A stretch of 21,331 nt of DNA from a virus. A program made the position numbers and the translations under genes. This document shows, piece after piece, positions 1,301 to 19,914 of the stretch (position 1 is the first letter of the stretch; every line of letters begins with the position of its first letter). The stretch spans positions 1 to 21,331 of the IMG/VR virus record IMGVR_UViG_3300044641_002674. One strand, written 5' to 3'. The notes beneath the pieces are model-generated. The model was given only the letters and a program-made list of their open reading frames with translations, ran no database searches and was not told where the DNA came from.

Positions 1301-1305
1301 TCTTG

Positions 1306-1379
1306 CGATTCCAACGGGACTTGAACCCGCAGCCTCTACCGTGACAGGGTAGCGATCTAACCAATTGATCTATGGAATC
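1306..1379 (-). tRNA. tRNA-Asp (anticodon GTC)
   Basis: 74 nt including the discriminator base. The acceptor stem GATTCCA/TGGAATC pairs perfectly, the D-arm GATC/GATC encloses a loop with GG, and the anticodon stem CTACC/GGTAG encloses loop CTGTCAC with anticodon GTC at 1343-1345. The T-arm carries TTCAAGT. The 3' CCA is not encoded (CAA follows the discriminator). The gene sits between a terminator-like hairpin (1382-1408) and the T-tract/CGAACGG tail (1288-1300) that elsewhere directly follows such hairpins, and is bounded by 10-bp direct repeats AATCTTGCGA (1299-1308 and 1376-1385). Confidence 0.95.
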
Positions 1380-1381
1380 TT

Positions 1382-1408
1382 GCGAGCAGTTTTTATTCTT
1401 GCTCAGGA
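1382..1408 (-). repeat. GAGCA...TGCTC hairpin, copy F
   Basis: Minus-strand arms GAGCA and TGCTC with an AAAAAC-rich loop, about 10 bases after the DUF932 gene stop. A member of the seven-copy hairpin family. On the plus strand it is followed by a run of seven T, so it may terminate in both directions. Confidence 0.65.
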
Positions 1409-1417
1409 ATTTTTTTG

Positions 1418-2597: not shown

Positions 2598-2640
2598 CGG
2601 TTCGAAAATTTTGTTGAGCAGTTTTAGGACGTGCTCAGGT
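2598..2640 (-). terminator. Terminator: hairpin copy E plus CGAACCG tail
   Basis: Minus-strand hairpin TGAGCA...TGCTCA (2614-2640), then CAAAATTTTCGAACCG. It lies 19 nt beyond the stop of the 2659-3090 gene. The T-run is short, so termination may be weak. Confidence 0.6.
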
Positions 2641-2658
2641 CCATTTAGTAGCCCCCTA

Positions 2659-3690: not shown

Positions 3691-3720
3691 ATTCTAGCAG
3701 GTTGGACCGACAAATGCCAA
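3691..3720 (-). promoter_or_regulatory. Promoter P5 with TGTC-16-(-10) element
   Basis: -35 TTGGCA (3715-3720), 18-bp spacer, extended -10 TGCTAGAAT (hexamer 3691-3696); TGTCGGT begins 16 nt before the -10. Drives 3157-3654. Confidence 0.78.
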
Positions 3721-3759
3721 TCGTAAGCCCAGAGATCTTAAATAGTGAGACGTAAAGCA

Positions 3760-3775
3760 TGTGAGAAAGATCACA
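3760..3775. promoter_or_regulatory. CRP/GlxR-type box
   Basis: TGTGAGAAAGATCACA, centre 71.5 bp from the first base of the P5 -10. It directly abuts the CGAACCG tail of the upstream terminator. Confidence 0.68.
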
Positions 3776-3817
3776 CGGTTCGAAAAATTTTTGAGCAGTT
3801 TATCAACTTACTCAGGT
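3776..3817 (-). terminator. Terminator: hairpin copy A plus T-tract and CGAACCG
   Basis: Minus-strand hairpin (3791-3817) with a nine-pair stem TGAGTAAGTT/AACTGCTCA (one bulge, one G-U), then AAAAATTTTTCGAACCG. It is the last of three tandem hairpins after the 3973-4401 gene. Confidence 0.7.
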
Positions 3818-3961
3818 TGTTTGCCTCGTGGCACCTTCGTGCATCTTGCAAAGTTATGTGAGCAGTTTATACACTTACTCAGGTGATGCAGAGGCAGGTA
3901 CCTTAGTCTGGAACCCCTGCAATTATTAAATTGTGTGAGCAGTTTAGCGACTTACTCAGGT
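3791..3961 (-). repeat. Three tandem hairpin repeats (copies A, B, C)
   Basis: The gene-free stretch 3655-3972 holds P5, a CRP-type box and three copies of a 23-bp core at 3791-3817, 3857-3884 and 3933-3961. On the minus strand each reads CCTGAGTAAGT-N3-TAAACTGCTCA. Both stem and part of the loop are conserved, beyond what a plain terminator needs. The 39-48 nt between copies have little in common beyond short GGTACC/GGTGCC words. Only copy A has a T-tract. No credible ORF lies here. Confidence 0.75.
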
Positions 3962-3972
3962 CGTTTATCTAA

Positions 3973-4401
3973 TTAAAGATAACGGGCTACCGCATTGTAG
4001 GTAGAAGTATTTACGACTTCCTCGTCGGTCATCTTTAGGATACGAATTGCATTTGCAATTTCCTCTTTCTGACTACGATATTCGTGCTGACCCATCATCT
4101 CAAAATCACGCTCAGGAGATGTTGGAAGGTCTGACTCTGAAAGACCTGTTAGGTCAAAGTCAATGTTTAGTGTTCCGTTCCAAGAACGAAATGATGTGCG
4201 GAAGTTTTCTGCCTTCTTGATGTTTGCAATCGCATAGGCAATCATTTCCTTCTTGTACTTCTCGTTAGCCTTCTGAAACTTTGCTTCATTGGCTTCTTGT
4301 GATGTGTAGTCAAGTTCTAGTTTAGCAAGTGCTGACTCTAGTGCCTTGATTACTTTGGTCGTTGCGATTTTTACGCTAATTGCTTTTCCTTTTGTTGCCA
4401 T
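3973..4401 (-). CDS. Lys/Ala-rich hypothetical protein, 142 aa
   Basis: Residues about 10-75 are a long amphipathic helix rich in Lys, Ala and Glu (ALESALAKLELDYTSQEANE and onward), then a short beta segment (GTLNIDFDLTGL), and a C-terminal helical part (EEIANAIRILKMTDEEVVN). Probably coiled-coil and soluble. The Shine-Dalgarno is only AAAGAAAAGAG. Upstream is hairpin copy D and the 54-aa gene, with no clear promoter of its own, so it is likely cotranscribed from P6. Function unknown. Confidence 0.78.
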   Translation of the reverse strand: MATKGKAISVKIATTKVIKALESALAKLELDYTSQEANEAKFQKANEKYKKEMIAYAIANIKKAENFRTSFRSWNGTLNIDFDLTGLSESDLPTSPERDFEMMGQHEYRSQKEEIANAIRILKMTDEEVVNTSTYNAVARYL

Positions 4402-4446: not shown

Positions 4447-4474
4447 AGTGAGCCTTTTTACAACTTGCTCAGGT
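4447..4474 (-). repeat. Hairpin family copy D
   Basis: Minus-strand TGAGC...GCTCA with loop AAGTTGTAAAAAG; the most diverged copy (GGCTCA in place of CTGCTCA). Lies between 4538 and 4401 without a T-tract, so it may be an attenuator or processing site within the operon. Confidence 0.55.
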
Positions 4475-4518
4475 TGTCCCACTCTATTTATTTAGACACG
4501 CATTTCTGTGGGGCGTGT

Positions 4519-7273: not shown

Positions 7274-7303
7274 TGTGGATAACTTAATCCAGCCTGTGGA
7301 TAA
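7274..7303 (-). promoter_or_regulatory. Pair of TTATCCACA (DnaA-type) boxes
   Basis: Two exact copies on the minus strand (7274-7282 and 7295-7303), starting 21 bp apart (two helical turns), each followed by GG. Confidence 0.7.
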
Positions 7304-7305
7304 CT

Positions 7306-7346
7306 CGGTTCGAAAAAACTTAAGCAGTTTTGAATCTTGCTTAGGA
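7306..7346 (-). terminator. Terminator: hairpin copy G plus T-tract and CGAACCG
   Basis: Minus-strand stem TAAGCA/TGCTTA (7320-7346), then AAGTTTTTTCGAACCG. The TAAGC/GCTTA stem carries a compensatory change relative to the TGAGC/GCTCA of other copies. On the plus strand the hairpin is followed by seven T. Confidence 0.75.
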
Positions 7347-7354
7347 TTTTTTTA

Positions 7355-17012: not shown

Positions 17013-17603
17013 ATGGGATACTCAATCTTTCCACTACCAAGTTCAGCAGCATATTCTACAACTGCTACTATTCGCCATCAATTTGATACAACAACAAATA
17101 GCCCAGGCATACCTTCTGGAACAAACCTAGTTTACGCTGCCGTTTACGGTGGTGGAGGCGGTGGTGGTGGCGGTGGTGGAAGTTGGCAAAATACAGCAGG
17201 TGGTACAGGTGGTACAGGTGGTCGTGGTGGTCTTTCTTTTGGACAAACATCAATTGGTGCTTCAGTAGTAATCGGTGCAGGTGGAAACGCAGGTACTGGA
17301 GGACTAAGCCAGCAGTTTGGTTGTACCTATAGAGGCACAAGCGGTGCTGGCGGTGCAGCAGGATTTTCTCAGTTTGGAGGATTCCTTTCTAATGGTGGAT
17401 CAGGTGGCGGTGGCGTAGGCCAAGGTGGTACAGGGAGCACAGGATCACGTGGCACCCCAGATTCACCATATAACATGACTATTCCAGGTGTAAACGGTAC
17501 ACCAGGGTTTGCTGGTAACGGTGGTGGCGGTGCAGGCCCAGGCGGTGGCGGTGGTGCAGGTGGTGGCGCTGGAAGTGCAGGAAAAGTTGTAATATGGTAT
17601 TAA
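17013..17603 (+). CDS. Glycine-rich fibre-tip protein, copy 1
   Basis: 196 aa: an N-terminal beta part (residues 1-45), an 11-Gly run (46-56), many GGTGG, GGAGG and GGGG motifs, and a C-terminal strand KVVIWY. This resembles the polyglycine-II-sandwich adhesins of phage tail fibres (S16 gp38-type), in which glycine loops display variable receptor-binding turns. A GC-richer, Gly-codon biased stretch in an AT-rich genome. AAGGA Shine-Dalgarno. Confidence 0.78.
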   Translation: MGYSIFPLPSSAAYSTTATIRHQFDTTTNSPGIPSGTNLVYAAVYGGGGGGGGGGGSWQNTAGGTGGTGGRGGLSFGQTSIGASVVIGAGGNAGTGGLSQQFGCTYRGTSGAGGAAGFSQFGGFLSNGGSGGGGVGQGGTGSTGSRGTPDSPYNMTIPGVNGTPGFAGNGGGGAGPGGGGGAGGGAGSAGKVVIWY

Positions 17604-17648: not shown

Positions 17649-18239
17649 ATGGGATATTCAGTATATCCACCAGCATCTTCTGGAGGACCTTTTCCATCAA
17701 CAAATATTAGACACGAATATACAACAACAACAAATAGCCCAGGCATCCCTGCTGGAACAAACCTAGTTTACGCTGGAGTTTGGGGCGGCGGTGGCGGTGG
17801 CGGTGGCGGTGGCGGAAGTTGGCAACATACAGCAGGTGGTACAGGAGGAACAGGTGGCCGTGGTGGTTTTGTTTTTGGACAAGTAGCAAAGCCTGATTCT
17901 GTAGTAATCGGTGCAGGTGGAACCGCAGGCAATGGAGGACTAAGCCAGCAGTTTGGTTGTACTTATAGAGGCACAAGCGGTGCAGGCGGTGCAGCAGGGT
18001 ATTCTCAATTTGGATATCTCTGGGCAAATGGTGGATCAGGTGGCGGTGGCGTAGGCCAAGGTGGTACAGGTTCAACGGGTGCTCAAGGAACTCCAGCAGT
18101 AAACACTACAATAGCATTTCCTGGTCAAAACGCTAATTCTGGAACACCTGGATCAGGTGGCGGTGGAGCAGGCCCAGGCGGTGGCGGTGGTTCTGGTGGT
18201 GGCGCTGGTGAGGGCGGAAGAGTCATTGTCTGGTACTAA
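17649..18239 (+). CDS. Glycine-rich fibre-tip protein, copy 2
   Basis: 196 aa, same length and architecture as copy 1. The Gly framework and GLSQQFGCTYRGTSGAGGAA are nearly identical; the insert segments between Gly runs (residues about 75-85, 125-130, 145-165) differ. This is the expected pattern for a duplicated receptor-binding protein with diversified loops. Shine-Dalgarno AAGAAAGGG. Confidence 0.8.
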   Translation: MGYSVYPPASSGGPFPSTNIRHEYTTTTNSPGIPAGTNLVYAGVWGGGGGGGGGGGSWQHTAGGTGGTGGRGGFVFGQVAKPDSVVIGAGGTAGNGGLSQQFGCTYRGTSGAGGAAGYSQFGYLWANGGSGGGGVGQGGTGSTGAQGTPAVNTTIAFPGQNANSGTPGSGGGGAGPGGGGGSGGGAGEGGRVIVWY

Positions 18240-18465: not shown

Positions 18466-19203
18466 ATGAAAATTATTTTTACAAATACTGTTTCTTTTGA
18501 TGGATTAGAAAGACCACAGCCTGCCTATAAACTAGTACCTGAATGGTATAAAAAAACTGATTCTTACATTGGAAAAACAAAAAAACCTCCTTCTAAAGGA
18601 TCTACAGATGCAACAATTAAAAGATGTATGCCAGTTTTTGATGCTATAATTTCAGGGTATATAATTACACTGCCAGCAGATGTATATGTTTCTTTAGTAG
18701 AGCAACATCCATACGACAGTGAAACTGGAAAACGTATAGAGGATATTCCAAGTAAAAAAGTACAATATTTTCAATGGTCAAATTTAGGTTTGGTATCTTT
18801 CCATCCAATTGAGCAGGCCCCACTGCATCCAGCAAAAAATGAGTATTCCTATCCAAAATGGATAAACCCCTGGTCAATTAAAACACCAAAGGGGTATTCG
18901 ACATTATTTATACAGCCAATGCATCGAGAATCAGTTTTTACAATTCTTCCAGGAATTGTAGATACAGATAAATATTCATCGCCAGTTAACTTCCCTTTTG
19001 TTATTAATGATCCAAATTTTGAAGGATTAATACCAAAAGGAACTCCAATTGCACAGGTAATTCCATTCAAAAGAGATGACTGGGAAATGGAATTTGGAAA
19101 AGATAAAGAATTTAAAGAACAGTTAGAAACTACAAATATGTTGTCTACAGTTTTTTTTGATGGGTATAAGAGTATGTTCAGAACAACAAAAGAATATAAA
19201 TAG
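18466..19203 (+). CDS. Uncharacterised phage protein A, 245 aa
   Basis: First of a tandem pair. Motifs in order: VPEWYKK (24-30), IKRCMPVFDAIISGYII (51-67), PYDSETG, INPWSIKTPKGYSTLFIQP (133-151), GIVDTDKY (163-170) and IPKGTPIAQVIPFKRDDWEM (189-208). Proteins with 'KRCMPVFDA...NPWSIKTPKGYS...GIVDTD...IP.GTPI.QVIPFKR' are common in marine phages, probably Pfam DUF6065-like (from memory). The GIVDTD..GTPIAQVIPF strand order is faintly dUTPase-like, but dUTPase motifs are not complete. Soluble; role unknown. Confidence 0.78.
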   Translation: MKIIFTNTVSFDGLERPQPAYKLVPEWYKKTDSYIGKTKKPPSKGSTDATIKRCMPVFDAIISGYIITLPADVYVSLVEQHPYDSETGKRIEDIPSKKVQYFQWSNLGLVSFHPIEQAPLHPAKNEYSYPKWINPWSIKTPKGYSTLFIQPMHRESVFTILPGIVDTDKYSSPVNFPFVINDPNFEGLIPKGTPIAQVIPFKRDDWEMEFGKDKEFKEQLETTNMLSTVFFDGYKSMFRTTKEYK

Positions 19204-19212
19204 GGGGATAAG

Positions 19213-19914
19213 ATGGCAAAGATAGTATTTACAGATATAGAAAATCCAGAAGGTGTTTTACAAAAACCAAAACCAGCAAGCGAATATATACCTCAGTGGT
19301 ATAAGGATGCTAAGGGATATACATCCCCAACTGGAAAAAAAGAGCCTAGGCTAGATGGTGCTAGTCCAACAACAGTAAAGAGATGTATGCCAGTATGGGA
19401 CATGATGACTGCTGGGTACATAATTGAAACACCATACGATATTTATGTAACACAAACTCCAGACGGCCCATATTTTCATTGGGGAGAAATGACTGCTGTT
19501 GTTTTTCAAAATATGGAACAAACGCAAAATCATCCATATTTTAGAGACATTAACTATGCAGTTAGGATTATTCATCCTTGGAGTATTAAAACTCCAAAGG
19601 GGTGGTCAATAATGGTTATAGAACCACAACATCGTGAGCCAGGTCCCATAATTGTTTCTAGTGGGATTGTTGATACAGATGATTGCCCCATGACTTTTAA
19701 CGTTTTTCTTAAATTAAGAGATCCAAACTTTGAAGGCATGATTCCCCAGGGAACCCCACTTGTACAGGTTATACCATTTAAGCGTGAATCTTGGACTTCA
19801 GTATTAGGTGGAGAAAAAGAAAAAAAGCAGTATGCTTCCGACTTAAGAAAGTTTACCATCCTTCTTCTTGATAGTTATAGGAGACTCTGGTGGAAAAGAA
19901 AAGAATATAAATAA
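19213..19914 (+). CDS. Uncharacterised phage protein B, 233 aa
   Basis: Paralog of the preceding gene: IPQWYKDAKG, VKRCMPVWDMMTAGYII (55-71), HPWSIKTPKGWSIMVIEPQH (121-140), GIVDTDDCP (151-159), IPQGTPLVQVIPFKRESW (177-194). A GGGGGATAAG Shine-Dalgarno precedes its ATG, 9 nt after the previous stop. The strong bidirectional terminator follows directly. Same reading as protein A. Confidence 0.78.
   Translation: MAKIVFTDIENPEGVLQKPKPASEYIPQWYKDAKGYTSPTGKKEPRLDGASPTTVKRCMPVWDMMTAGYIIETPYDIYVTQTPDGPYFHWGEMTAVVFQNMEQTQNHPYFRDINYAVRIIHPWSIKTPKGWSIMVIEPQHREPGPIIVSSGIVDTDDCPMTFNVFLKLRDPNFEGMIPQGTPLVQVIPFKRESWTSVLGGEKEKKQYASDLRKFTILLLDSYRRLWWKRKEYK

Follow-up and report, generated by a model that had tools for sequence, protein, structure and literature searches.

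A 28-nucleotide H-type RNA pseudoknot behind stop codons of phage genes, a candidate mRNA 3'-end element

Introduction

The gene 32 mRNA of phage T4 has a pseudoknot in its 5' leader that nucleates the binding of gp32. Viral frameshift and readthrough pseudoknots are of the H type, have an A-rich loop 3 and are located 5–8 nt from the codon concerned, and the preQ1-I riboswitch is a tiny H-type pseudoknot, also with an A-rich loop 3. There are also the intercistronic RNase III sites of phages (e.g., T7), long hairpins between genes that define stable mRNA ends. A frameshift pseudoknot is treated in PMC5506516, and ToxI has been described as a 36-nt pseudoknot arranged in repeats, with a pseudo-ToxI carried by phage PhiTE (PMC3475682).

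The window studied here is the whole stretch of 21,331 nt that forms positions 1 to 21,331 of the IMG/VR virus record IMGVR_UViG_3300044641_002674. An earlier note on this DNA had pointed to three tandem hairpins behind a 142-aa gene, and had proposed for them a small RNA, a sponge or a graded terminator. We have compared these elements with their counterparts in 160 related or pattern-matched viral loci, which together with the window make up 161 loci and 1.54 Mb of sequence.

Results and Discussion

The array behind the 142-aa gene

The features of the window that bear on the array and on the other copies of the element are collected in Table 1. The three elements are indeed related and lie, on the minus strand, in the untranslated 3' region of the 142-aa gene, and in the order of transcription only the last copy is followed by a T-tract, both as first described. 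Their spacings had been given as 66 and 76 nt, figures which have to be raised by one each (67 and 77 nt, start to start), the family relationship itself being sound. What had to be abandoned is the plain hairpin: the elements are pseudoknots made of two interleaved stems; the inverted repeat TGAGYA...TGCTCA forms just the second of these, and the first one covaries (see below).

Table 1. Positions of the pseudoknots and neighboring features in the window
Feature	Position	Strand	Sequence and context
142-aa gene, with the array in its 3' UTR	3973..4401	-	No Pfam or PHROG match
Pseudoknot 1	3936..3963	-	Stem 1 CGAC/GTCG, stem 2 TGAGTA/TGCTCA, loop 3 CTAAAC; 9 nt past the stop of the 142-aa gene
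Spacer between pseudoknots 1 and 2 (49 nt)	3887..3935	-	Hairpin TGCAGGGG...CCTCTGCA, pairing read by eye
Pseudoknot 2	3859..3886	-	Stem 1 TCAC/GTGT (3 of 4 pairs), stem 2 TGAGTA/TGCTCA, loop 3 ATAAAC
Spacer between pseudoknots 2 and 3 (39 nt)	3820..3858	-	Hairpin TTTGC...GCAAA / GCAC-GAAG-GTGC, pairing read by eye
Pseudoknot 3	3792..3819	-	Stem 1 CAAC/GTTG, stem 2 TGAGTA/TGCTCA, loop 3 ATAAAC
Tract past pseudoknot 3	3783..3791	-	AAAATTTTT: AAAA, then TTTTT (3787–3783); CGAACC comes next; terminator-like transcript end
Promoter-like site, 3' of the T-tract	3691..3720	-	TTGGCA-18-TAGAAT, TG before the second hexamer; consensus match only
Variant pseudoknot between the 54-aa and 142-aa genes	4449..4476	-	Stem 1 CAAC/GTTG, stem 2 TGAGCA/GGCTCA (5 of 6 pairs)
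Pseudoknot behind the 143-aa gene	2615..2642	-	Stem 1 GGAC/GTCC; followed by ACAAAATTTTCGAAC
Pseudoknot between the DUF932 gene and tRNA-Asp	1383..1410	-	Stop 7 nt upstream, tRNA 3 nt downstream
tRNA-Asp, directly 3' of pseudoknot 1383–1410	1305..1379	-	
Pseudoknot with stem 2 altered yet paired	7321..7348	-	Stem 2 TAAGCA/TGCTTA; followed by AGTTTTTTCGAAC

The triple array is not conserved as an array, and three copies are unusual among the relatives: among the 61 loci with at least 450 nt downstream of the 142-aa gene, one copy is found there in 44, two in 9, three in 2 and none in 6. The array region of 197 nt has a minimum free energy of −47.3 kcal/mol (z −2.13), as computed by a folding program that cannot draw pseudoknots. 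Sites that resemble promoters like the one past the T-tract show no excess (38 found, 36.8 expected in shuffled sequences).

The hairpin of the 49-nt spacer recurs, with compensatory changes judged by eye, in the related locus L149. More generally, hairpin modules of 35–72 nt that separate the pseudoknots recur shuffled among relatives (the window at 3887–3935 and L149; L034, L066, and L074), some of them with compensatory changes. The possibility that the knots frame small-RNA cassettes was considered and set aside: some spacers do recur, yet a second copy follows within 160 nt for only 9 of 300 distinct copies. Nor did the small RNA or sponge of the earlier note gain support: in unrelated phages the element is usually present once, a few nucleotides past a stop codon.

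In total the window family (D4) has seven members, six with the full stem 2 and one variant. The string TTTTT(T)CGAAC recurs on the minus strand (window positions 7317, 5863, 3787, 1299, and 8543), behind pseudoknots, behind an ordinary terminator hairpin (5863) and behind tRNA-Asp; CGAAC past the T-tract is conserved, as if it were part of the termination site or of the next promoter. Directly past a pseudoknot and its T-tract there are also TTATCCACA stretches, in the window (7290–7310 and 2590–2620) and in relatives (a cluster of 40), which resemble the consensus of DnaA boxes and may mark an origin region in these phages. Palindromes similar to TGTGA-N6-TCACA, which resemble CRP-type sites, are found past T-tracts (about 3757–3776 and 1270–1290 in the window, and in many relatives). 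Elsewhere in the window, a glycine-rich 196-aa gene is duplicated in tandem (17013–17603 and 17649–18239; the first 300 nt are 81% identical), and the adjacent genes at 18466–19203 and 19213–19914 have similar lengths and similar N- and C-termini, the first one matching phrog_7084.

Consensus, fold and covariation

On the minus (coding) strand the consensus is NNNC-C-UGAGYA-W-GNNN-NNAAAC-UGCUCA, with a length of 28 nt, and the element is almost certainly an H-type RNA pseudoknot in which the stem NNNC/GNNN is interleaved with the stem UGAGYA/UGCUCA. Stem 1 comprises 4 bp whose sequence is free except for the last C-G pair, pairing being kept, and stem 2 comprises 6 bp of the UGAGYA/UGCUCA type. 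Loop 1 is a single C, loop 2 has 1 nt, and loop 3 ends in AAAC and is usually 6 nt long (236 of 285 distinct sequences, with 8–10 nt in another 44); among the seven copies with a 9-nt loop 3, three have three additional stem-1 pairs. Across 150 distinct sequences stem 2, loop 1 and the AAAC are near-invariant and stem 1 varies freely. Two interleaved covarying stems and a short loop 1 with a longer A-rich loop 3 place the element in the H-type class. Taken singly, the stems have median folding energies of −0.2 (stem 1) and −5.4 kcal/mol (stem 2).

The strict motif finder retrieved 358 copies from the 161 loci and none from the same sequences reversed. When the rule on the sequence of stem 2 was lifted, the copies rose to 377, against 9 in the reversed sequences, and further stem-2 types came to light. 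In the search pattern the C-G junction pair of stem 1 was prescribed and its other three pairs were unconstrained; among the 285 distinct sequences, selected on stem 2 and loop 3 alone, all four stem-1 pairs are formed in 231 (mean of 34 with shuffled partners), three pairs in 52 and one pair in 2. An alignment of 150 distinct copies, out of 175 available, gave a stem-1 covariation score of 0.855, compared to 0.174 in the shuffled control and no more than 0.123 in the slid one, and 214 of the 600 stem-1 cells are altered on both sides, against 71 in the shuffled set. Covariation across both stems reaches 0.443 (0.147 in the control). Stem 2 had been required to pair in the selection, so that only double changes are informative there, and such double-sided changes are present as well. 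At the orthologous site before tRNA-Asp, stem 1 appears in several fully paired forms.

One of the stem-2 pairs is G-U in 39 of the 150 copies, and as G-U pairs become A-C mismatches on the opposite strand, the structure belongs to the RNA of the coding strand. The search rules were fixed (a C as loop 1, a loop 3 ending in AAC), and more divergent copies are therefore missed.

Placement relative to stop codons, T-tracts and tRNAs

Altogether 288 distinct copies were placed relative to ORFs called by a simple greedy caller, 231 of them outside any called ORF and 228 of these intergenic with an upstream gene called (3 without); copies inside an opposite-strand ORF (48 of 288) or a same-strand ORF (9) were left out. 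The upstream gene is on the same strand for 217 of the 228, and the gap is 20 nt or less in 151 of those 217. Between the stop of upstream ORFs of at least 40 aa and stem 1 there are 4 nt in 3 copies, 5 nt in 40, 6 nt in 26, 7 nt in 14 and 8 nt in 25, and never fewer than 4. The element lies downstream of a gene, on the coding strand and mostly 5–8 nt past the stop codon, and what comes next is a further gene, a U-tract or a tRNA. Of the 146 stop codons within 12 nt of a copy 128 are UAA, compared to 387 of 722 long ORFs in the same records, which speaks against read-through, and the next in-frame stop is often found within 9 codons. A signal for stop-codon readthrough or frameshifting was rejected on account of this preference for UAA and of the shortness of the in-frame extensions.

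A tRNA begins within 20 nt downstream of 57 of the 288 copies, and none (0/288) was found within 150 nt upstream; after removal of near-duplicates 53 of 274 copies precede a tRNA, with gaps of 2–13 nt. A CCA-like, tRNA-mimicking tail was also considered and discarded, since CCA stands behind the knot in only 33 of 274 copies, too few for a rule.

Among the 221 copies not followed by a tRNA, 66 have TTTT within the first 14 nt past the knot, compared to 14/221, 12/221, and 10/220 in control stretches, and the other 155 have no T-tract. The T content of 75 T-tract copies peaks at positions 4–8 past the knot, the tract usually starting 1–4 nt past the stem. If there is a T-tract, the next ORF on the same strand is farther away (median of 142 vs. 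75 nt). A pattern scan for intrinsic terminators did not list the three copies of the array.

The flanking genes are diverse (SSB, RNR, Hsp20, portal, capsid, DUF932). Those upstream genes that could be named, an SSB or ssDNA-binding-like protein (L116), Hsp20, ribonucleotide reductase (RNR) and a major head protein, are often ones expected in large amounts. In the Hsp20-linked contigs the copy is closer to the downstream start than to the upstream gene.

Distribution among phages

Annotated carriers include phages of Arthrobacter, Mycobacterium, Lactobacillus, Roseobacter-group bacteria and Synechococcus, together with crAss-like phages. In the Arthrobacter phages Molivia and Amigo the copy lies 6 and 8 nt past the SSB gene and 2 nt before tRNA-Gly, in the crAss-like cr124_1 it is 4 nt before tRNA-Val, and in Mycobacterium phage Labelle it follows a hypothetical gene adjoining a RecA-like gene. 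SIO1 has a copy 9 nt past its RNR gene, and Lentibacter phage ICBM3 has one behind the corresponding gene, annotated as hypothetical. Copies are also found in cyanophage S-RIM4 and Paracoccus ParMal1. In Lactobacillus phiAQ113, phiEF-1.1, Bacillus poppyseed and Staphylococcus StB12 the copy separates the portal or minor-head genes from those for scaffold and capsid, and in several Firmicutes phages 19–73 nt separate it from the gene before it, with the scaffold and capsid genes lying downstream. Within two gut phages (L222 and L224, region 1500–1685) the knot ends at 1527 and a match to the DUF2800 RNA (RF02960) starts at 1528, and the two may act jointly there. The pairing is less complete in Chaseviridae (E. 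coli EcoM1 and Erwinia Berlingot), whose stem 1 is imperfect with only two contiguous bases paired, and in Vibrio D456, phiAQ113, phiEF-1.1, poppyseed, and StB12, which miss one stem-2 pair.

All 35 viral records of 30–318 kb obtained by the pattern search contained 1–5 strict matches each, a figure that reflects copy number and not prevalence, since the records were chosen as carriers. In six phage genomes (four complete and two large parts) the single strict match was in each case the known copy, and looser matches were no more numerous than in the reversed control. The motif is rare in bacterial genome contigs: a scan covering 84,980 species gave 14 stretches, five of which (L209, L213, L216, L218, and L219) have at least three stem-1 pairs, the one in L213 lying inside an ORF. 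One query against plasmids gave no full match. Among seven sequences (the four complete phage genomes, the two large parts and the window) we found no shared phage-encoded partner; the widest protein cluster covers three of the seven, and no protein is common to the six phages and the window.

A possible role at mRNA 3' ends

The placement of the pseudoknot suggests, with moderate confidence, an mRNA 3'-end element of many phages that marks or protects the ends of messages. The knot would fold once the last ribosome has left, and would from then on be the structure in which the preceding message ends. Next to a U-tract it would replace the terminator hairpin; ahead of a tRNA it would come to lie at the new 3' end of the mRNA once RNase P has cut; and within an operon it would halt 3'-to-5' exonucleases that follow an internal cleavage. 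The 142-aa mRNA of the window would end in three copies, the last one with its U-tract. All three contexts (U-tract, tRNA, next gene) would leave the knot as the last structure of the message, and a 5' role is inapplicable where a terminator follows, as is a tRNA-specific role where there is no tRNA, all of which argues for a 3'-end element. As no common phage-encoded partner was found among the sequences compared, the knot probably works by being stable in itself or with the help of a general host enzyme. Against this reading, the scaffold-capsid and Hsp20 positions would be equally compatible with a 5' element belonging to the gene downstream, and the majority of copies not preceding a tRNA have no T-tract. 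By their energies the stems are also rather weak for a roadblock, unless the knotted fold contributes further stability. The weightiest objections are the copies that have no T-tract, the scaffold-capsid position in Firmicutes phages and the fixed sequence of stem 2.

A pseudoknot-type intrinsic terminator, with the knot in place of the GC-rich hairpin, copies devoid of T-tract as weak attenuators and the array as a graded terminator, seems unlikely to us. It would account for the excess of T-tracts and their peak at positions 4–8, and also for the third window copy, which ends a unit and has a promoter-like site next to it. Still, 155 of 221 copies have no tract, others abut tRNAs, which must be transcribed, and the tract is usually 1–4 nt away from the stem and not directly joined to it; since most copies are without a T-tract and stem 2 is weak, termination is unlikely to be the common role. 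The graded terminator of the earlier note survives in part, in the U-tract of the third copy and the roughly fivefold enrichment of T-tracts in the family, and is weakened by those same two points. The near-constancy of stem 2, on the other hand, exceeds the needs of a bare roadblock and hints at recognition by some factor. A conserved host factor (ribosome, RNA polymerase or RNase) or a small ligand could bind the constant stem 2 and loop 3 and control the processing or expression of the neighbors, and the near-invariant stem 2, loop 1, and AAAC beside a free stem 1, kept in the same form across phages of several bacterial phyla that share no common protein, point in that direction. The flanking genes are diverse, no candidate partner emerged among the sequences compared, and the helix junction, holding only the 1-nt loops 1 and 2, would leave little room for a riboswitch pocket, which makes recognition, as the main function, somewhat less probable still.

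A translation insulator would have the knot sit at the mRNA entry of the terminating ribosome and bar ribosomes from downstream tRNAs, structured RNAs or starts. The stop gaps peak at 5–8 nt, the spacing typical of frameshift pseudoknots, and the knot abuts tRNAs (2–13 nt) and also the DUF2800 RNA of two gut phages, but array copies 2 and 3 are far from any called stop and the enrichment of T-tracts is left unexplained, so that we give this idea only a small chance. Much more improbable is an antitoxin-like RNA that would act, similarly to the pseudo-ToxI repeats of PhiTE, as a decoy for a type III toxin (ToxN/AbiQ). The window does carry three copies of a small phage pseudoknot RNA, and PhiTE is evidence that such decoys occur in phages (PMC3475682). 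Instead of the adjoining repeats of about 36 nt expected of a type III antitoxin, however, the unit has 28 nt, the spacers of the array have 49 and 39 nt, most copies are single and placed by stops, and stem 1 varies freely. The reading with the least to recommend it, barely credible in our view, is a DNA operator in which a repressor binds the inverted repeat TGAGCA...TGCTCA; the repeat does recur in intergenic regions, but the covariation of the interleaved stem 1, the strong strand bias and the retained G-U pairs fit an RNA made from one strand, and on the last two grounds the operator was rejected.

The broader version of the 3'-end reading is more tentative than the role itself, and we consider it rather doubtful: one 28-nt knot may be a general phage signal that defines mRNA 3' ends via a universal host machine, behind stops and before tRNAs, in phages of Actinobacteria, Firmicutes, Bacteroidetes, Cyanobacteria and Proteobacteria. 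If true, it would be the knotted counterpart of terminator and REP-type hairpins, used by phages and scarcely by their hosts. An element that defines or protects mRNA 3' ends would explain segmented expression in compact phage operons (capsid vs. portal, mRNA vs. tRNA) and could provide a small portable part for stabilizing bacterial transcripts. Carriers infect tractable hosts such as Mycobacterium smegmatis, Arthrobacter sp. ATCC 21022, and E. coli (Chaseviridae, with the imperfect stem 1).

Comparison with known systems

With the 4227 covariance models of Rfam 15 at the gathering score, only the tRNA was detected in the window; at E up to 10 the region 3760–3980 gave just two unrelated weak matches, and 16 phage loci gave tRNA and the DUF2800 RNA only. 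We found no earlier description of the motif in the open-access PMC literature. A covarying motif present in phages of several phyla, scarce in bacterial contigs and absent from Rfam suggests a common problem met with the same solution.

ToxI and pseudo-ToxI resemble the present element in being short pseudoknot RNAs, phage-borne and repeated in PhiTE, but they form 36-nt repeats, in contrast to a 28-nt element that is mostly single (44 of 61 relatives have one copy), close to stops and endowed with a covarying stem 1 (PMC3475682). The viral frameshift and readthrough pseudoknots share with it the H type, the A-rich loop 3 and the gap of 5–8 nt; ours stands behind UAA (128 of 146) and before tRNAs or T-tracts, and implies no slippery site or read-through product. 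The preQ1-I riboswitch is likewise a tiny H-type knot with an A-rich loop 3, whereas here loops 1 and 2 are of 1 nt, there is no obvious pocket and Rfam gave no match. Like the pseudoknot of T4 gene 32, this is a small H-type knot in phage mRNA, and it is linked to SSB in Molivia, Amigo, and L116 (ssDNA-binding-like), but it is found behind genes of many kinds in unrelated phages. The RNase III sites of the T7 type are also intergenic phage structures, and differ in being long hairpins where the element described here is a 28-nt pseudoknot of two short stems.
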